Source: a virus. Taken from it: a stretch of DNA of 24,126 nt. The position numbers and the translations under genes are program-made. The notes under the pieces were generated by a model. The model was not told where the DNA came from. It saw only the letters and a list, made by a program, of their open reading frames with translations, and made no database searches. Positions 3,948-20,917 of this stretch are shown in pieces. Positions within the stretch are counted from its first letter, which is position 1. Each line of letters begins with the position of its first letter. The stretch covers positions 1 through 24,126 of IMG/VR virus record IMGVR_UViG_3300037285_000172. The stretch is one strand, 5' to 3'.

Positions 3948-4343
3948 ATATATATTGATATGCTATTCGATCGCGGTCGCGATACTATATCTGTGGTAGA
4001 ACGTAATGAAGCAGGCGAACGTGTATTCACACAATATCCTGCTCATTACGTTTTTTATTACCCAGATAAAAAAGGCAAGTTCACCAGTATTTTTGGTGAT
4101 ACACTAGGGCGTTATTCCACAACCAGTGGTAAAGCGTTTAACAAAGAAAAGAAGTCGTTCTACGGTCAAACATTGTTTGAGAGCGACATCAAGCCAGAAT
4201 TCCGTTGTATTTCAGACAATTATCTGGATGCTCCTGTTCCCAATTTGAACGTGGCATTTTTCGATATTGAAACTGAGGGGCGGCCGTTCGCCGCCCCTAA
4301 TCAGAAAATGGTTAAGATAAGAAAGAGACAACCAAGAATATAA
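3948..4343 (+). CDS. 43A: DNA polymerase gp43, N-terminal fragment (through Exo I), probable AUA start
   Basis: This frame encodes the N-terminal domain of a T4-type family-B polymerase, ending in the Exo I motif AFFDIETE. IYIDMLFDRGRDTISVVER is the expected first beta-strand region of gp43. The only good ribosome site, AGGAG at 3936-3940, is 7 bases before ATA at 3948; the first in-frame ATG in that area (3960) is 19 bases away, and ATG 3879 would overlap the previous gene by 55 bases. I therefore call an AUA start. After Exo I the frame runs through a GC-rich hairpin into about 20 basic residues of non-polymerase sequence and stops at 4341. The polymerase continues as a separate frame at 5072, with an HNH endonuclease between. 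The exonuclease and polymerase activities would need both polypeptides to assemble. Confidence 0.8.
   Translation: MYIDMLFDRGRDTISVVERNEAGERVFTQYPAHYVFYYPDKKGKFTSIFGDTLGRYSTTSGKAFNKEKKSFYGQTLFESDIKPEFRCISDNYLDAPVPNLNVAFFDIETEGRPFAAPNQKMVKIRKRQPRI
4276..4298 (+). promoter_or_regulatory. GC-rich hairpin at the polymerase break
   Basis: AGGGGCGGC (4276-4284), a 5-base loop CGTTC, and GCCGCCCCT (4290-4298) form a perfect 9-bp stem, much more GC-rich than its surroundings. It starts one base into the codon after FDIET, exactly where polymerase homology ends. No U-tract follows. It may be the boundary of the inserted endonuclease element or may limit expression of the endonuclease. Confidence 0.6.
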
Positions 4344-4345
4344 TA

Positions 4346-4360
4346 TTTGATATTGAGACT
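4346..4360 (+). repeat. second copy of the FDIET (Exo I) coding sequence
   Basis: TTTGATATTGAGACT (4346-4360) encodes FDIET, as does TTCGATATTGAAACT at 4260-4274 in the polymerase. The two differ only at two silent third positions. The copy lies between the end of the N-terminal fragment and the HNH gene, in a frame that closes at the TGA at 4373. It may be flanking exon sequence carried in with the endonuclease from a related polymerase gene; at 15 bases chance cannot be excluded. Confidence 0.4.
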
Positions 4361-4389
4361 AATATGCTAAATAGTTGAAAGGAAGAACT

Positions 4390-5094
4390 ATGGATCATCA
4401 ATTAGTATACAACAATATAATTGTTGCCGCACTTAGCAGAAACAGTGGTGATGAACGTCACCACATTGTACCCAAGAGCTGTGGCGGCAGCAATGAATTG
4501 GACAATCTGGTATTATTGACATATAGGGAACATTACGTGTGCCACTGTTTACTGGTTCGCATGTTTCCTGCAGGATCACCTCATCGTAAGAAAATGGTAT
4601 ACGCACTGTGGTGGATGTCGAAGACCAGGGCAAATAAAACTAGAGTAAGCAGCCACCAATATGCAGTGGCGCGCGATCTTTTCATTGCCAACATGCCCAC
4701 CAGGCAGGAAGGGTACCGCAAACGATTTGCTAGAAAATACCACGCAGGTGAATACAAATATAATCCTGCCATAAATGCAGCATCTTTACGATTATATCTT
4801 GCTGACCTAAGTCGGTTAGAATTACAAGAACGAATGGCACGATCTACCGGAACATGCGATCATATAGCCAGGGGCCGCAATATTGCCAAAGGCAAGTCGT
4901 CACAATTTGAGATTACTGACGACAACCACAATTCAATTACAGTTTGGACACACGAAGATGTCCTTTCTATCACAGGATACACCACCGCCCAATTACGCTA
5001 CCGTATCCAGAAATGTGACGGTATATTGCCTGATTGTAGGCGCGTAACATATTTAAAAAGGTACACAGGTAATGACAGGACACAGCGAACATGA
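4390..5094 (+). CDS. HNH homing endonuclease splitting the polymerase gene
   Basis: A 234-residue HNH endonuclease. ERHHIVPKSCGGSNELDNL (residues 22-40) and the later EHYVCH (from 47) provide the His-His, Asn39 and His48 of the beta-beta-alpha metal fold. The C-terminal part (ITGYTTAQLRYRI at about residue 195) resembles the NUMOD-type DNA-recognition helices of phage homing enzymes. AAGGAAG precedes ATG 4390. The gene sits between the two polymerase fragments and its 3' end overlaps the second fragment by 23 bases. With only 46 bases between the first fragment's stop and this ATG, there is little room for a group I intron core. A free-standing homing gene that splits its host gene is more likely, as for the T4-like nrdA/mobE arrangement. 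Confidence 0.85.
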   Translation: MDHQLVYNNIIVAALSRNSGDERHHIVPKSCGGSNELDNLVLLTYREHYVCHCLLVRMFPAGSPHRKKMVYALWWMSKTRANKTRVSSHQYAVARDLFIANMPTRQEGYRKRFARKYHAGEYKYNPAINAASLRLYLADLSRLELQERMARSTGTCDHIARGRNIAKGKSSQFEITDDNHNSITVWTHEDVLSITGYTTAQLRYRIQKCDGILPDCRRVTYLKRYTGNDRTQRT

Positions 5095-7594
5095 AACGAT
5101 ATCAGTTTACGAGTTAGGCACCATGGCCAACAAAGACGATTATGAAGTATGGGATGATGAAAGTAAAAGTTGGGTTACACCATCCAGTTCGTCCTATCTA
5201 AAACCAGGCTTTGGTTTTGCTCCGCCAGATGATCCTTTTAATATGATCACGGCTGTGGGGGTACACCTAAGTTGGTTAAACAAGACAATTTGTTTGGCTA
5301 TCAAGCCCAAAGCCATGTCACAAGAAGAAGCAGAAGCCATTGTTGCTGACATGGATGATGTTTTCCTTATGAGGACTGAAGACGAACTACTGCTGACATT
5401 TTTGGATCTGATTGAAGATGCTGACATTTTGTCAGGTTGGAACAGTGAAGGATTTGATATTCCATACACAACCAATCGTATTGCACTGGTGTTGGGTAAA
5501 GATTACACTCGTAAGCTTTGCCTATGGGACCAATATCCCAAGAAACGCACCTATGAAGCGTTTGGTAAAGAGCAAGAGACGTTCGATCTTGTTGGGCGTG
5601 TACACTTGGATTATATGCAGCTCTACAAAAAATATACCTATCATGAAATGCACAGCTATGCGCTCAATGCAATTGCTGAACATGAACTCAACGACAACAA
5701 GATTGAATACGAAGGTACACTGGATCAATTATACAACAACGACTTCAAGAAGTTTATTGAATACAACATTCAAGATACTGATTTGTTGCGGGCTTTGGAT
5801 GACAAACTCCAGTTTATTGACTTGAGTAACGTGTTGGCGCATGCAAATGGTGTGTTGATTCCCACTACTGCTGGTGCTGTGGCACAAACTGACCAGGCTA
5901 TTATTAATGAAGCGCACGGACGTGGGTTGGTGGTTCCTGATAAAGTACGTGGACAAGAACATATTCCAGCAGCTGGTGCATATGTCGCCACACCAGTCAA
6001 AGGATTGCACGAGTGGATCGGATCAATGGACCTTAACTCATTGTATCCATCAATTCTGCGAGCATGTAATATGAGTCCAGAATGTATTATTGGGCAGGTT
6101 AGACATGATTTAACCAATGCTGGATTGCATGAATTTATCAAACGTGGTAAAGGTTATGCACTGAAAGTAAAAGATCCTACTAATATGAAGGAAGTGTTTG
6201 CATTTGGCAAGTCACTGCTAGACAGTCCATTCCCCAAGTATTGGGAAGGCAAGTTTGCATGTGATGAGTATAATTTGGTGATGGCTCGAGATCGTGGTCA
6301 AGAACTTATAATCGACTTTGAGGATGGCAACAGCTATGCATCGTCCGGCGCAGAGATTCATGATTTGGTATTCAACAGTGGTAAGCCATGGTGCATTACC
6401 AGCAACGGTACTATTTTTACGTTTGAAAAGCAAGGCGTTGTGCCAGGCTTGTTAGAGCGTTGGTATTCAGAGCGTAAAGTGTTACAGAAGAAGGCACGTG
6501 AGTTTAAAGAATCAGATCCAGTGCAATTTGCATACTGGGACAAGCGTCAGTTAGTTAAGAAGATTAACTTGAACAGCCTGTACGGTGCCTTGTTGAATCC
6601 GGGCAGTCGCTTCTTCGATATCAGGCTTGGGCAGTCTACCACGCTCACAGGGCGTACAATCGCCCGTCACATGAGTGCTGCGACTAATGAAGCGTTCACT
6701 GGTGAATATGATCACGTTGGTGATTCCATTATCTATGGTGATACTGACTCAGTTTACTTCAGTGCCTATCCTATCTTCAAGCCACAAATTGACACTGGTG
6801 AATTTAAATGGGACAAGGACACAATCGTTGAGTTGTATGATACAGTGGGTGATCAGGTAAATGATACATTCCCTGGATACATGGAACGCGCCCATAATTG
6901 TCCTGATTCATATGGTCGCATTATTGCGGCTGCACGTGAAGCAGTGTGTGAAAAAGGCTTGTTTATCAGCAAAAAGCGTTATGGATTGTTGGTATATGAT
7001 GATGAAGGCACAAGGGTGGATACTCCCACCAGTAAAGGCAAACTTAAAGTCATGGGCTTGGAAATCAAGCGCAGTGACACACCAGTTTACATGCAGGAAT
7101 TCCTCAAAGAGATCCTGAGTGCTACACTGTATGGTGCAACTGAGAAAGAAGTTGTTACCAGAATTTTAGAATTTCGACAGGAGTTCAAGAATATGCCAGC
7201 ATGGGAAAAAGGTACACCAAAACGTGTAAACAACCTAACCAAGTATACCAAAGCTTGGAATAAAACTGGCAAATGTGGTGTAGGGCATGTTACAGCGGCG
7301 ATTAACTACAATCGTCTGCGTGAAATGCACAGCGATCAATACACTATGGAGATTGTTGATGGTATGAAAACCATCGTATGCAAACTCAAGCAGAATCCGC
7401 TGAATATGACCAGCATCGGTATTCCCACTGATGAAAAGCGGATTCCACAATGGTACAAAGACTTGCCATTCGACAACGACTTAATGGAAGAGACCATTAT
7501 TACCAAGAAGATCAGCAACCTATTGGGCACACTGAAATGGGATTTATCCCGCGCAGAGTCCAAGACTACATTTAACGATTTATTTGATTTTTAA
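5072..7594 (+). CDS. 43B: DNA polymerase gp43, C-terminal fragment (Exo II to C-terminus)
   Basis: 840 residues holding the rest of a family-B replicative polymerase: Exo II GWNSEGFDIPY (about residue 123), Exo III YNIQDTDLL (about 230), motif A SMDLNSLYPSIL (about 320), motif B KKINLNSLYGALLNPG (about 500) and motif C YGDTDSVYF (about 555). The last residues TTFNDLFDF form a clamp-binding tail like T4 gp43's. Only Exo I and the N-terminal domain are missing; they are encoded at 3948-4343. ATG 5072 has AAGG 10 bases upstream; ATG 5123 (MANKDDYEVW) with AGG 4 bases upstream is an alternative. The first ~45 residues before GFAPPDDPFNMI do not look like typical gp43 and may be new sequence gained with the split. 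All catalytic motifs appear intact. Confidence 0.92.
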   Translation: MTGHSEHETISVYELGTMANKDDYEVWDDESKSWVTPSSSSYLKPGFGFAPPDDPFNMITAVGVHLSWLNKTICLAIKPKAMSQEEAEAIVADMDDVFLMRTEDELLLTFLDLIEDADILSGWNSEGFDIPYTTNRIALVLGKDYTRKLCLWDQYPKKRTYEAFGKEQETFDLVGRVHLDYMQLYKKYTYHEMHSYALNAIAEHELNDNKIEYEGTLDQLYNNDFKKFIEYNIQDTDLLRALDDKLQFIDLSNVLAHANGVLIPTTAGAVAQTDQAIINEAHGRGLVVPDKVRGQEHIPAAGAYVATPVKGLHEWIGSMDLNSLYPSILRACNMSPECIIGQVRHDLTNAGLHEFIKRGKGYALKVKDPTNMKEVFAFGKSLLDSPFPKYWEGKFACDEYNLVMARDRGQELIIDFEDGNSYASSGAEIHDLVFNSGKPWCITSNGTIFTFEKQGVVPGLLERWYSERKVLQKKAREFKESDPVQFAYWDKRQLVKKINLNSLYGALLNPGSRFFDIRLGQSTTLTGRTIARHMSAATNEAFTGEYDHVGDSIIYGDTDSVYFSAYPIFKPQIDTGEFKWDKDTIVELYDTVGDQVNDTFPGYMERAHNCPDSYGRIIAAAREAVCEKGLFISKKRYGLLVYDDEGTRVDTPTSKGKLKVMGLEIKRSDTPVYMQEFLKEILSATLYGATEKEVVTRILEFRQEFKNMPAWEKGTPKRVNNLTKYTKAWNKTGKCGVGHVTAAINYNRLREMHSDQYTMEIVDGMKTIVCKLKQNPLNMTSIGIPTDEKRIPQWYKDLPFDNDLMEETIITKKISNLLGTLKWDLSRAESKTTFNDLFDF

Positions 7595-15733: not shown

Positions 15734-16451
15734 ACGACTTATAGTCATTTTCACATATTGTAATTAACTCGAACCCTGCATCTAAAATTTGTTGTTCCCG
15801 TTGCAGGGTTCAAGTATATAATTCGCCATATGTTTTATTAATCATCGGATGCTTGTCTTCTGCATTAAATAGTTTGGGATTACCGTGCCAGAAGTCACCA
15901 TTAAATAAAAACGCTGTATTTGACACTGGATTATACCCGTCAAAAATATGCTTCGTTTGTCCTATTCTTACTATGTGCTGTCTTACTGGTACATCTAATA
16001 AATCCAACCACTCTTTTTCTGGTTTAGATATGCGCATAGATACTTTGGAACATGACGGACACCCACTACCCATCATGTGTAATTTGGCAGTAGTTTCAAA
16101 CTCACCATGAGTACTGCATGTTGGAATTACAGGCGCATCTATATGCGTATATATAAAATTAGAATATGTATATAACATGCCATGAACTTTAATGAAATCT
16201 AGCAGCCGTTCTTCCGTAGACTTTCTTTTACTGTTGCCAGTTTTAATACCACGTTGTTCGTTCGCACAAGTAGGACATCCTCTCCCGTAACGATGGTCAT
16301 TGGCCCGTTGTTGAAACATGCCATGTGTGATACATATAATTTGAACATGCTGGTGGGCGCTTATATAATTTGTTCTACTATAATCATATAAATTATTATG
16401 GACGATAGACGCAATGGCTGCCCATTTCTTGGTTGTTAGCTTTTTAGACAT
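15723..16451 (-). pseudogene. DUF723/Vsr-like homing endonuclease interrupted by an in-frame UGA
   Basis: Read on the minus strand from ATG 16451 (GGAGAAC upstream), 213 codons reach a TGA at 15812-15810. Two zinc-ribbon repeats (YDYS...ICITHG...GCPTC, then CSTHGEF...GSGCPSC) are followed by a Vsr/EDxHD-type nuclease region (FDGYNPVSNTAFLFNGDFWH and HPMINKTYGELYT). In the same frame after the TGA, 28 more codons (TLQREQQILDAGFELITIC and on) give the C-terminal helix and strand expected after 'GELYxxT', ending in TAA at 15723. The gene therefore carries an opal nonsense codon in its last eighth. It is probably a decayed homing endonuclease; UGA readthrough is possible. It is the only minus-strand gene in the window, inserted between folE and the next operon. 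Confidence 0.75.
15771..15811. repeat. 10-bp inverted repeat overlapping the UGA of the endonuclease
   Basis: GAACCCTGCA (15771-15780) and TGCAGGGTTC (15802-15811) are perfect inverted copies around a 21-base loop. On the minus strand the stem begins inside the interrupting UGA codon. With no U-run it is not a clear terminator, but it is the only structured element between the convergent folE and endonuclease genes. Confidence 0.5.
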
Positions 16452-18212: not shown

Positions 18213-18245
18213 ATGTTTGGAACAAACGAAATAGTCGGAAAATAA
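18213..18245 (+). pseudogene. orphan first ten codons of queE
   Basis: ATG 18213 begins MFGTNEIVGK and then stops with TAA. The same ten residues begin the complete queE at 19065. The two 30-base segments differ at six positions, all silent third positions. AAAAGGATG upstream is a good ribosome site, so this is likely the original queE start, cut off when the GIY-YIG gene inserted. Confidence 0.8.
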
Positions 18246-18277: not shown

Positions 18278-19081
18278 ATGATACATACGGTTTATAAAAC
18301 AACAAACTTAATAAACGGCAAATATTACATTGGGAAACATTCTACTGAAAACATAAATGATAATTATTTAGGGTCAGGTATTGCACTGCTTAAAGCAATA
18401 TCTAAGTATGGTAGAGATAAGTTCGTTAAACAAATATTATTTCAGTATACTGACGAAGCTGCGGCCTACGCAACTGAACATAAATTAATAATAGAAGCAG
18501 ATATGGTGAACGATCCGCAAAGTTATAATTTATGCTATGGTGGACTTGGATTCTGGCAAGGATCAACACACACTATTGAAACTCGAAAAAAAATATCAGA
18601 AGGCAATAAAGGCAAGGTACGCTCAGACACTGCCAAGATTAAATATAGCACAGCCAAACGCGGCATACCTAAAAGTGCAGATCACAAACAAAAACTAAGT
18701 GATATAAACACTGGTAAAATACATACACAGGAAACTAAAGATAAAATATCAGCAGCAAATACTGGACGGACACTTACACAAGCCACCAAAGATAAAATAT
18801 CAGCATCTAACAAAGGTCGTCCAAGCAACAGATTGGGCACAACCTGTTCTAATGAAACTAAAGCACGGATGTCGGCGGCACAAAAAGGTCGAATAGTGTC
18901 TACAGACGCCCGTGCAAAATTGAGCGTGGCTAACACTGGTGAAAATAATCCTAATTTTGGTACAATGTGGATTACAAATGAAGAAGAGAATATGAAAATT
19001 AAAAAGACAGACGTTATCCCGGATGGATGGCGAAGAGGACGAATATTTAAGAAGGGATACAACCATGTTCGGAACAAATGA
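18278..19081 (+). CDS. GIY-YIG homing endonuclease inserted at queE
   Basis: 267 residues. The N-terminal nuclease domain has VYKTTNLINGKYYIGKH (GIY...YIG equivalents at about residues 5-21) and the later conserved NDNYLGSG and EHKLI segments. From about residue 95 to 200 it has NUMOD3-like DNA-binding repeats of the form T-x-x-K-I-S-x-x-N-x-G. The C-terminal FGTMWITNEEENMKI and PDGWRRGR are typical of Seg-type phage endonucleases. AGGAG precedes the ATG. It lies between the orphan queE start and the full queE; its last codons overlap the new queE start in another frame, so its stop TGA falls inside queE codons 5-6. Confidence 0.9.
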   Translation: MIHTVYKTTNLINGKYYIGKHSTENINDNYLGSGIALLKAISKYGRDKFVKQILFQYTDEAAAYATEHKLIIEADMVNDPQSYNLCYGGLGFWQGSTHTIETRKKISEGNKGKVRSDTAKIKYSTAKRGIPKSADHKQKLSDINTGKIHTQETKDKISAANTGRTLTQATKDKISASNKGRPSNRLGTTCSNETKARMSAAQKGRIVSTDARAKLSVANTGENNPNFGTMWITNEEENMKIKKTDVIPDGWRRGRIFKKGYNHVRNK

Positions 19082-19988
19082 AATTGTGGGCAAGCGTTTT
19101 TTCAAAGACGCAGAAAAAGATCAGATGCTGGTAACATCTATGTTTATGACACTACAGGGTGAAGGCCCTTTTAGAGGGGAGCCTGCGTTTTTTATCCGGC
19201 TGGCAAAGTGCAACTTGGATTGTCAGTTCTGTGACACATTCTTTGACGACGGTGATTGGCTGACTTTTGATGAGATTGAGCAGCGCATTGAGGAAACTAT
19301 TGACCAGTTCTACATTGATAAAAAAATGGATCGACCAGCATGGACAAGACACGCAATAAAAACAACTGATTTGTCTGAAGATTCAGTAGTTGAATATCAG
19401 TTAGGGTCGCCTATGCGCAAACGTATGGTGCTGGTGATGACTGGTGGCGAACCGATGCTGCAAGATAATATCAATCCTTTCCTTGAACGCATGGAACAGG
19501 TGTTTGATAAGTCACAGATTGAGAGCAATGGCACACAGGCAACTGCCATTCCAGAAAGCACAACATTGGTGTGTTCGCCTAAATGCTTGGAAAAGAAAAA
19601 GGTAGCTGTACGGTATTTGAAACCCCGTCCGGAAATTCTAGAGCGGGCAACTTGTTTGAAGTTTGTTATGGAAGCTGACCAGGATTCGCCATACTGTGAT
19701 ATTCCAGATTGGGCACATGAATGGCATGCTGAAACTGGCCGTGCTGTTTTTGTTAGCCCTATGAACGTGTACAACACAGTGCCGTTGGAGAGCAAAAAAT
19801 TCCGTCTCAACAGCAATACAACCAGCTTGAAGCAGCGTAGCGAGATTGACGAAGTGGTGTCATTTTGGGAACCAGAATTGCTGGATATGAAAGCAAATCA
19901 GATTAACCATGAATATGCTGCACAATTTTGTGTGAAGCATGGTTATATCCTAAATTTACAGATTCATCTTTACTGCACTATGGCATGA
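19065..19988 (+). CDS. queE: 7-carboxy-7-deazaguanine synthase (radical SAM)
   Basis: A 307-residue QueE. The radical-SAM cluster motif CX3CX2C is Cys49, Cys53 and Cys56 in AKCNLDCQFCDTFF, preceded by the QueE hallmark TLQGEGPFRGEPAFFIRL. TGGEPMLQ (126-133) binds SAM. The end HGYILNLQIHLY matches the usual 'LQxHKY' end of QueE. It rearranges the QueD product to 7-carboxy-7-deazaguanine, precursor of preQ0. It is longer than typical bacterial QueE because of an insert around residues 60-120. The start ATG has AAGAAGGGA upstream, located in the end of the endonuclease gene. Its TGA overlaps the first mini-ORF of the array (ATGA). Confidence 0.92.
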   Translation: MFGTNEIVGKRFFKDAEKDQMLVTSMFMTLQGEGPFRGEPAFFIRLAKCNLDCQFCDTFFDDGDWLTFDEIEQRIEETIDQFYIDKKMDRPAWTRHAIKTTDLSEDSVVEYQLGSPMRKRMVLVMTGGEPMLQDNINPFLERMEQVFDKSQIESNGTQATAIPESTTLVCSPKCLEKKKVAVRYLKPRPEILERATCLKFVMEADQDSPYCDIPDWAHEWHAETGRAVFVSPMNVYNTVPLESKKFRLNSNTTSLKQRSEIDEVVSFWEPELLDMKANQINHEYAAQFCVKHGYILNLQIHLYCTMA

Positions 19989-20134
19989 TTATCACTGCTA
20001 TCATACCCAGGCCATATGAAGTATCAATTCGGTATGTTATGCCAAATATAATTGCACATGACATTATTGGCTGTTCACCATTTTGCGGACCTAAAGGCAA
20101 GATCGTTGACATGTCAACGAGGTACAAACAATGA
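19985..20134 (+). CDS. MIITAI micro-ORF 1, gp23-like tail
   Basis: 49 residues starting MIITAIIPRPYE; ATG overlaps the queE stop. From residue 16, YVMPNIIAHDIIGCSPFCGP and then KGKIVDMSTRYK resemble the region of T4 major capsid protein gp23 that reads IPNLIAFDICGVQPM followed by G-x-x-F-x-x-R. Conserved points are the P-N-x-I-A-x-D-I-x-G run, GP-x-G and the closing R-Y. This is the gp23 segment around residue 100-130. The capsid likeness is by eye; the function is unknown. Confidence 0.7.
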   Translation: MIITAIIPRPYEVSIRYVMPNIIAHDIIGCSPFCGPKGKIVDMSTRYKQ

Positions 20135-20277
20135 TCATCACTGCTATTGTTCCGTTGGATGGTGTCGAATTATTGAAGCGCCTAGTTGCCAGCAAATCAT
20201 ATACTTTTCGTGAACGATTAGCGTCTTGTAACGTAACCGATGACGAATTTATGAAATACTGGGCGGATGTGTTATGA
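20131..20277 (+). CDS. MIITAI micro-ORF 2
   Basis: 48 residues starting MIITAIVPLDG, with GAGG 9 bases upstream of the ATG and an ATGA overlap with micro-ORF 1. The rest (VELLKRLVASKSYTFRERLA, then VTDDEFMKYWADVL) looks like a small two- or three-helix peptide and does not obviously match gp23. Function unknown. Confidence 0.65.
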   Translation: MIITAIVPLDGVELLKRLVASKSYTFRERLASCNVTDDEFMKYWADVL

Positions 20278-20408
20278 TTATCACTGCAATAATCCCACGT
20301 CCTGGCTTTTGGATTGACTGGGGCACGACTTTCCATGGCCAACCATTCATGGAAAGTTTTGCACGATCATATTTGGGCGTATGGCCAGTAGTTGAGGATA
20401 TAAAATGA
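20274..20408 (+). CDS. MIITAI micro-ORF 3
   Basis: 44 residues starting MIITAIIPRPGFWIDWG, ATGA overlap with micro-ORF 2. Residues 10-13 (PGFW) are shared with micro-ORF 4, and both end in DIK, so 3 and 4 are the closest pair: probably a recent duplication with a shortened middle in 4. The middle (HGQPFMESFARSYLGVWPVV) is aromatic-rich. Confidence 0.65.
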   Translation: MIITAIIPRPGFWIDWGTTFHGQPFMESFARSYLGVWPVVEDIK

Positions 20409-20494
20409 TTATTACTGCTATTATTCCCCGACCAGGTTTTTGGGCCCAATGGGCACCCGCTATTTGGGCAAAGTCCGCACAGGATATCAAATGA
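20405..20494 (+). CDS. MIITAI micro-ORF 4
   Basis: 29 residues starting MIITAIIPRPGFWAQW and ending AQDIK. GAGG lies 8-9 bases upstream (GTTGAGGATATAAAATG). It is closely related to micro-ORF 3 at both ends. It has four Trp in 29 residues, which is unusual. ATGA overlaps on both sides. Confidence 0.65.
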   Translation: MIITAIIPRPGFWAQWAPAIWAKSAQDIK

Positions 20495-20649
20495 TTATTA
20501 CTGCTATCATACCTTATAATTATAACTTAGTATTAGCTAATATGCGCCGTATTATGCCTGCACAGATGGCTGATGAACTCGTTGGTATTCAGCCAATGAC
20601 TGGACCAGTTGGTGATATATTTACCCGGGCACCAGCATACAAAAAATGA
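20491..20649 (+). CDS. MIITAI micro-ORF 5, gp23-like tail
   Basis: 52 residues starting MIITAIIPYNYN, with AGGA upstream. From residue 18 it reads MRRIMPAQMADELVGIQPM, then TGPVGDIFTRAPAY, the clearest match to gp23: T4 has MVRRAIPNLIAFDICGVQPM, then N-S-P-T-G-Q-V-F-x-x-R-A-x-Y. Shared points include RR, IP/MP, G-(I/V)-QPM, P-x-G and F-x-x-R-A-x-Y. This is the Gol region of T4 gp23. The match covers most of the peptide after the shared leader. Confidence 0.75.
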   Translation: MIITAIIPYNYNLVLANMRRIMPAQMADELVGIQPMTGPVGDIFTRAPAYKK

Positions 20650-20678
20650 TTATTACAGCTATTATCCACAAAGCATAG
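20646..20678 (+). pseudogene. MIITAI micro-ORF 6, apparently frameshifted
   Basis: Starts MIITAIIHKA and stops at TAG after 10 residues. The bases ATTATCCACAAAGC would read IIPQS if one C were added, and the frame would then join the open frame described at 20684-20917, which continues SIEDMISEILAAEITAEI. A one-base loss in the Pro codon that is conserved in all other members is the simplest explanation; a sequencing error or a programmed shift are alternatives. Confidence 0.6.
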
Positions 20679-20683
20679 AAGAC

Positions 20684-20917
20684 ATGATTTCTGAGATATT
20701 GGCTGCTGAAATTACTGCTGAAATAGACAAGCAAATACTGGAGACGCTTTATGAAAATTACGGCTATGATCCCTTGGCCAAAACATTTGGTGCGAGTGAG
20801 ATTTACAATGGCAACGGGCAGTTGATTATCACAGCCATTGTGCCGCGACCGCAAATAACTGGATACTCTAGTTGGATTAGCGCCTACAAAGCGATATTGA
20901 CAGCCAGGCCTAAATAG
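20684..20917 (+). CDS. gp23-like continuation of micro-ORF 6, read through into member 8
   Basis: Frame open from before 20684 to 20917 (77 residues from this ATG). Its first part, MISEILAAEITAEIDKQIL, resembles a helix of T4 gp23 (AELSGILATEIMLEINREVV, roughly residues 265-285). It would follow the MIITAIIP leader of member 6 if the one-base shift is repaired. The frame then runs through the DNA of member 7 in another phase and joins member 8 in frame (LIITAIVPRP). It is not clear whether it is translated from 20684 itself. Confidence 0.45.
   Translation: MISEILAAEITAEIDKQILETLYENYGYDPLAKTFGASEIYNGNGQLIITAIVPRPQITGYSSWISAYKAILTARPK
20751..20825 (+). CDS. MIITAI micro-ORF 7
   Basis: 24 residues, MKITAMIPWPKHLVRVRF and then TMATGS. 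The leader is a divergent family member (K2, M6, W9). GGAG 8 bases before the ATG (CTGGAGACGCTTTATG) and a TTGA overlap of its stop with the start of member 8 support translation, even though another open frame covers the same DNA. A basic stretch (K11 to R17) follows the leader. Confidence 0.55.
   Translation: MKITAMIPWPKHLVRVRFTMATGS
20822..20917 (+). CDS. MIITAI micro-ORF 8 (TTG start)
   Basis: 31 residues starting at TTG: LIITAIVPRPQITGYSSW, ending TARPK. The TTG overlaps the stop of member 7 (TTGA), mirroring the ATGA junctions elsewhere in the array; GGG lies a few bases upstream. It could also be made as the C-terminal part of the longer frame at 20684-20917. The TTGACA at its end may serve as the metK -35 box. 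Confidence 0.55.
   Translation: MIITAIVPRPQITGYSSWISAYKAILTARPK

Follow-up and report, generated by a model that had tools for sequence, protein, structure and literature searches.

What becomes of a replicative DNA polymerase when a mobile element settles within the codons of its proofreading site is the question raised by one IMG/VR virus record (IMGVR_UViG_3300037285_000172), analyzed here as a single stretch of 24,126 bases (the window). Its T4-type DNA polymerase gene gp43 spans positions 3948-7594 and is interrupted at the Exo I motif FDIET by a gene for an HNH endonuclease. Selfish elements in essential genes are mostly tolerated because they are spliced out. For this locus another solution is proposed, with a probability of about 0.8: a homing cassette fragmented the polymerase and supplied the parts by which the fragments dock. 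The proposal was built from sequence comparisons, which show the split, its conserved parts, selection on the tail and the extension added to the two polymerase chains, recurrent gain or loss, split genes without an intact HNH gene, and fused forms.

The interrupted polymerase gene

An original prediction, made from the letters alone, described a polymerase split at Exo I by an HNH element, and all parts of this arrangement are present in the sequence (Table 1). Because the nearest unsplit relatives (loci L001, L002 and L012, 87% identical) read an uninterrupted VAFFDIETDFNKELGFAPPEDPFN at the split site, the insert can be delimited as a cassette of 936 bp (4277-5212) standing in place of six of their codons (DFNKEL). 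The match to unsplit gp43 ends at FDIET and the following GA (4260-4276) and is picked up again at GFAPPDDPFN (5213). The two open reading frames (ORFs) of the polymerase carry a C-terminal and an N-terminal addition, respectively, that unsplit homologues do not have: chain 1 reads ...VAFFDIET and continues with EGRPFAAPNQKMVKIRKRQPRI to a stop codon at 4341-4343, its C-terminus being VKIRKRQPRI, and chain 2 starts with about 46 additional residues, an acidic extension that includes YEVWDDESKSWV. The break had been placed immediately after FDIET(E), which holds for the homology with gp43, whereas chain 1 itself reads 22 codons past FDIET. The GC-rich hairpin described after FDIET was likewise found (4277-4297), but inside coding sequence and not beyond chain 1; hairpins of different sequence occur at the equivalent place in L220 and L221 (z scores -3.1 and -3.5), and none was seen in two loci of another subgroup. 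In alignment with unsplit relatives DFNKEL is lost, and a tail of 22 residues and an extension of about 46 are gained; this tail and this extension, overlooked by the original prediction, are the more important part of the locus.

Neither chain contains frameshifts or other frame decay. Chain 1 is 93% identical to the L001 protein, with proportions of nonsynonymous (pN) and synonymous (pS) differences of 0.039 and 0.78, and in chain 2 the exonuclease and polymerase parts are 89 and 86% identical, respectively. Chain 1 holds Exo I, and Exo II/III belong to chain 2, in which the motifs GWNSEGFDIP, SLYPS and YGDTDS were all found, so the exonuclease site would have to be built from two chains, as predicted, if both are made. 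A low-confidence model of L001 suggests that the split falls in a loop (residues 111-123) between the strand bearing Exo I (102-109) and the following strand (127-134).

The most likely start codon of chain 1 is an AUA at 3948, behind AGGAG. Among relatives L001-L016 the start position and an AGGAG-like upstream site are conserved, and this essential polymerase seemingly uses a rare start codon: AUA in the window, L001, L002, L003 and L012, AUU in L004, L006, L008 and L015, and AUC in L010, with UUG, GUG and CUG only in L005, L009 and L016.

In the HNH protein the motif residues H24, H25, N39 and H48 are all kept in the alignment, and matches were obtained to Pfam HNH (E 1e-4) and PHROG 655 (E 9e-33); a single-protein search for close relatives of it returned none in viral or genome contigs. 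The presence of this gene is polymorphic at a fixed site, the window being split and its sister L001 unsplit.

A conserved tail and extension

About 94 relatives on viral contigs are unsplit at the Exo I site, and of 61 phage records the 60 listed all gave one contiguous match across it. No cultured phage with the Exo I split arrangement was found in these searches. The sister L001, 87-88% identical, is unsplit with the DFNKEL loop and without the module, so the difference between the two covers tail, HNH gene and extension all together. An HNH profile search led to L164, where a diverged gp43 is interrupted at this same position and carries a similar tail, HVVKIRPKR, and extension, YEVWDEEKKAWV. 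Further loci with the module were found by an extension pattern and then by profile search, giving 30 IMG/VR loci in which the same extension is joined to gp43 just past the Exo I loop; in the majority of them chain 1 ends in DIE[VTC] plus a tail and an HNH gene lies between the chains. That an assembly artefact fused the HNH gene to gp43 in the window is a practically negligible prospect: the window is a single metagenomic contig, but some 30 other contigs share the arrangement.

Four states of the gene can be distinguished. It may be unsplit and without the module, as in L001, or split with an HNH gene, as in the window and most module loci. In a third state, represented by three loci, the split is kept without an intact HNH gene: L226 retains, in a gap of 82 nucleotides, a 3' HNH remnant of the last 30-odd codons (KYRISSHNGLLLDGRIVKLINKYIGGNRWKKK, then the stop), L238 has a gap of 76 nucleotides and no HNH gene, and in L241, also lacking it, the ORFs of the two chains almost abut. 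In the fourth state, tail and extension lie within one continuous gp43 ORF (L231, on the same contig as L189, and L246). In a quick maximum-likelihood tree, supported branches force at least five changes of the split label, and the window and unsplit L001 form a pair at 100%. This pattern of split and unsplit genes looks like the trace that a homing element would leave.

The homologous tails of other split loci end in [VI][KR][IV]R[KP][KR], and their alignment keeps K-[IV]-R-[KP]-[KR]; that of the extensions keeps EVWD, W and Y. Close pairs that differ show pN 0.00-0.14 against pS 0.46-0.90 in the tails, and mostly pN 0.02-0.21 against pS 0.6-0.9 in the extensions. The net charge is zero or positive for the tail and negative for the extension in 20 of 20 loci. 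By these measures purifying selection acts on both tail and extension, which bear opposite charges, and since substitutions are mostly silent and the charge pattern is uniform, both are most likely translated and constrained. Docking of chain 1 to chain 2 through them is the most likely reading of this conservation, selection and charge. The tail/extension module was not found with extension queries in 50,697 phage records, an extension query gave no module match in plasmids, and no Pfam family covers it.

These data also bear on whether the insertion simply disabled proofreading, leaving chain 1 as a remnant in decay and chain 2 to work alone as a polymerase deficient in exonuclease activity. 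The break does lie in a proofreading motif and, with an unsplit sister (L001), the insertion in the window is young compared with the family. Chain 1, however, is conserved at least as well as chain 2 (93% against 86-89% identity to L001), DIE is invariant across 14 aligned chain 1 sequences of the family, and selection acts on the tails even in loci without an intact HNH gene, which makes such a loss of function quite improbable.

Table 1. Features of the split gp43 locus (positions in the window).
Feature	Position	Strand	Evidence
Polymerase-homologous 109 residues of gp43 chain 1, ending with Exo I FDIET	3948..4274	+	93% identical to L001
Chain 1 tail EGRPFAAPNQKMVKIRKRQPRI and stop, basic (+6)	4275..4343	+	homologous tails in other split loci
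GC hairpin GGGGCGGC-CGTTC-GCCGCCCC within the tail-coding sequence	4277..4297	+	z -4.5
Second copy of the FDIET codons, a proposed operator or mimic of the homing site for the HNH endonuclease	4346..4360	+	DIE copy in related HNH leaders
Late-promoter-like GCTAAATA, 17 nucleotides after the start of GATATTGAG	4366..4373	+	
Ribosome-binding site AAAGGAAG within a weak inverted repeat (ATAGTT/AACTAT)	4371..4391	+	z -0.6
Free-standing HNH homing endonuclease, MobE-like, 234 amino acids, intact	4390..5094	+	Pfam HNH, PHROG 655, alignment
gp43 chain 2 ORF including extension	5072-7594	+	
Chain 2 N-terminal extension MTGHSEHETISVYELGTMANKDDYEVWDDESKSWVTPSSSSYLKPGF, acidic (-6)	5072..5212	+	30 further gp43 loci have a homologous extension
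Chain 2 without the extension: remaining exonuclease part (Exo II, Exo III) and polymerase domain	5213..7594	+	PHROG 262, E 4e-183

Splicing as an alternative

A self-splicing intron or a (split) intein would restore a whole polymerase. HNH genes are frequently carried by introns and inteins, and gp43 of phage MIJ3 was described as split with an intein (PMC6892783). Over 4000-5400, however, Rfam at E<=10 returned no group I or group II intron, while the positive control, the group I intron known from gp43 of phage 25, was recovered at E 2e-15; the earlier impression that there is no group I intron here is thus borne out. By Pfam there is no Hint domain on either chain, and the junctions offer neither a Cys or Ser after FDIET nor a terminal Asn before GFAPP. 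Excision of the insert would not rebuild the ancestral loop, since the DFNKEL codons are missing; in relatives, tail and extension are themselves under amino-acid selection; and some loci hold two ORFs separated by a short gap alone. Taken together, splicing of either kind is very improbable.

A weak PDB match to the fused split intein VidaL was not significant (E 0.14). Other readings were also rejected. Translational bypassing from ACU to ACU would land in a frame that terminates after FDIETNMLNS. For an RNA helix between both FDIET copies, the motif being near-palindromic, the duplex reached P 0.035, and P 0.20 with the hairpin removed.

The FDIET copy in the HNH leader

A second, silent-variant copy of FDIET had been noticed ahead of the HNH gene and is indeed present at 4346-4360; it reads TTT GAT ATT GAG ACT against the native TTC GAT ATT GAA ACT, both differences being silent. 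A degenerate FDIET pattern occurs twice in the window against a mean of 0.00 in 100 shuffles, and a 13/15 match to FDIET in the leader was equalled by none of 5,000 shuffles. Among related HNH genes, 15 of 17 have a GAYATHGAR (DIE) copy within 50 nucleotides upstream of the start codon, the background being 0.9% of random 50-mers of the same loci. In nine loci, including the window and L108, the copy begins exactly 17 nucleotides before the late-promoter-like NNTAAATA. Relative to the HNH frame it is out of frame in the window and in frame in L108 and L200; in L198 it forms part of the chain 1 tail, and in L192 native motif and copy are both DIECP. L108, whose gp43 is unsplit and has the HNH gene at its 5' end, nonetheless carries the DIE copy. 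The first 17 gp43 codons of L108 occur on both flanks of its HNH gene, at 2375-2425 and from 3213, silently different.

The inverted repeat around the ribosome-binding site, weak in the window, is clearer in L108 and L176 (z -2.7 and -2.4). At 2425-2480 of L176, close to gp43, a related HNH gene combines a perfect TATAAATA with a hairpin of 12 bp that encloses its ribosome-binding site; the 5' arm of this hairpin overlaps the promoter box.

Viewed across these loci, the FDIET copy is a conserved promoter-proximal element of related HNH genes in varying reading frames, and with the late-promoter-like box it most likely forms a putative operator for self-repression of the HNH gene. The genes of the T4 endonucleases I-TevI, I-TevII and I-TevIII are similarly preceded, at a late or middle promoter, by a copy resembling the homing site, and the operator bound by I-TevI looks like its own homing site (PMC2988022). 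These T4 endonucleases differ in being intron-encoded, and the operator of the window is a putative one read from a sequence pattern.

Alternatively, the copy could be a leftover or recoded piece of gp43 coding sequence, a scar of co-conversion and not a regulatory site. Both of its differences from the native motif are silent, the residues upstream of it weakly resemble gp43 (P 0.05), and silently recoded gene starts beside endonuclease genes are known in the window (queE) and in L108; a parallel with queE was also drawn in the original prediction. This origin is nevertheless unlikely, given the copies in 15 of 17 HNH leaders, the 17-nucleotide spacing to TAAATA fixed in the subgroup of nine, the variable reading frame and the copy in L108, whose HNH gene lies away from Exo I; the parallel with queE is likewise not supported. 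No contig was found with a donor gene encoding NIIFDIETNM or FDIETNMLN.

Proposed mechanism

In the proposed scheme, a MobE-like HNH homing endonuclease cassette has inserted in gp43 at the Exo I codons, with three kinds of cargo: the HNH gene, upstream of it a short copy of the Exo I target by a late-promoter-like box, and coding sequence fused to both polymerase halves. The HNH protein would cut the intact Exo I codons of an uninvaded gp43, and repair would copy the cassette in. Bound to the operator copy without productive cutting, the endonuclease may repress its own gene. The basic tail of chain 1 and the acidic YEVWDE...WV extension of chain 2 would dock, giving one polymerase with a working exonuclease site. 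Docking, operator function and homing activity are what we infer here from the sequence patterns.

Several points weigh against this scheme. The 15/17 statistics for the operator ignore shared ancestry, related loci not being independent; the DIE copy is absent from L188 and L236, and the late box of the window agrees with TATAAATA at only six of eight positions. The tree is a quick version with some long branches. The AlphaFold models are poor, with mean predicted local distance difference test (pLDDT) values of 44 and 49, and unsuited to fold search, which leaves docking on conservation, selection and charge. A profile comparison of the tails with those of Aeh1 NrdA gave no match (hhalign probability 0.4%).

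Comparison with known split genes

Tails made by insertion, as in the ribonucleotide reductase NrdA of Aeromonas phage Aeh1, have reportedly been proposed as a possible general remedy other than splicing, and a tail requirement in this enzyme is said to have been described by Crona et al. in 2011. The genes-in-pieces order NrdA-a / MobE / NrdA-b of Aeh1 is among the closest in kind to the window: the HNH family is shared (31% over 93 amino acids), a free-standing HNH gene splits an essential gene in a critical region with the enzyme remaining functional, and the gene pieces acquire a C-terminal tail and an acidic N-terminal extension (PMC2988022). It concerns another gene, however, and tails of the window type recur, conserved, among numerous diverged polymerases, some of them in fused form or without an HNH gene. 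The gp43A/gp43B of Aeromonas phages 44RR and 25, likewise a functional split enzyme, is a T4-type polymerase whose two chains co-purify and are active (PMC2988022). 44RR also has a GC hairpin between the gp43 cistrons, and phage 25 a free-standing endonuclease at the gp43 split, although of seg type; both differ from the window in being split after about residue 498 and not at Exo I, and the VKIRKK / YEVWDE module was not recognised in them. PolB of Pseudomonas phage MIJ3, a jumbo phage, also has an HNH gene between two gp43 parts, but at another split site (chain 1 of about 800 amino acids) and ascribed to an intein (PMC6892783).

A gene split of this general kind is therefore already known, from Aeh1 NrdA/MobE and, elsewhere in the gene, from 44RR/25 gp43 (PMC2988022). 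Within the open-licence PubMed Central (PMC) literature, as far as searched, the new points are the Exo I site, a conserved, putative docking module that travels together with the HNH gene, the repeated occurrence of this module in diverged polymerases and the HNH-less splits.

Other features of the window

The start of queE, ten codons long (MFGTNEIVGK), is present in two copies, at 18213-18242 and 19065-19094, which flank the greater part of a GIY-YIG endonuclease gene (18278-19081). The copies differ at several codons, always silently, and the upstream one is followed by a stop codon. Seven imperfect copies of a 28-nucleotide repeat (TGATTATYACTGCTATNATNCC...) at 19986-20850 precede a SAM (S-adenosylmethionine) synthetase gene. 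Two small ORFs with short repeat motifs are found at 2254-2881, and ORFs related to them, partly in multiple copies, lie upstream of gp43 in L001, L002, L012 and L018. On the minus strand, 15810-16451 holds an endonuclease-like ORF (PHROG 681/559), homologues of which are located beside gp43 in L005 and inside the HNH region of MIJ3 gp43 (L020).

Implications

Beyond this single locus, we lean towards a widespread mobile 'split-and-staple' cassette, in which endonuclease and two-part docking module would enter diverse B-family polymerases of phages at their Exo I codons as one unit, as a protein-level alternative to intron or intein splicing, with a module that would outlast loss of the endonuclease. 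The conserved tail pair seems to travel with the endonuclease across about 30 loci and several polymerase lineages, and some loci have retained the split despite losing the endonuclease gene. These loci provide a comparative system for studying how a mobile element may carry the repair for its own damage, how a replicative polymerase tolerates a cut in its proofreading site and whether mutation rate is affected by the split, and they predict that tail and extension would constitute a short natural docking pair.

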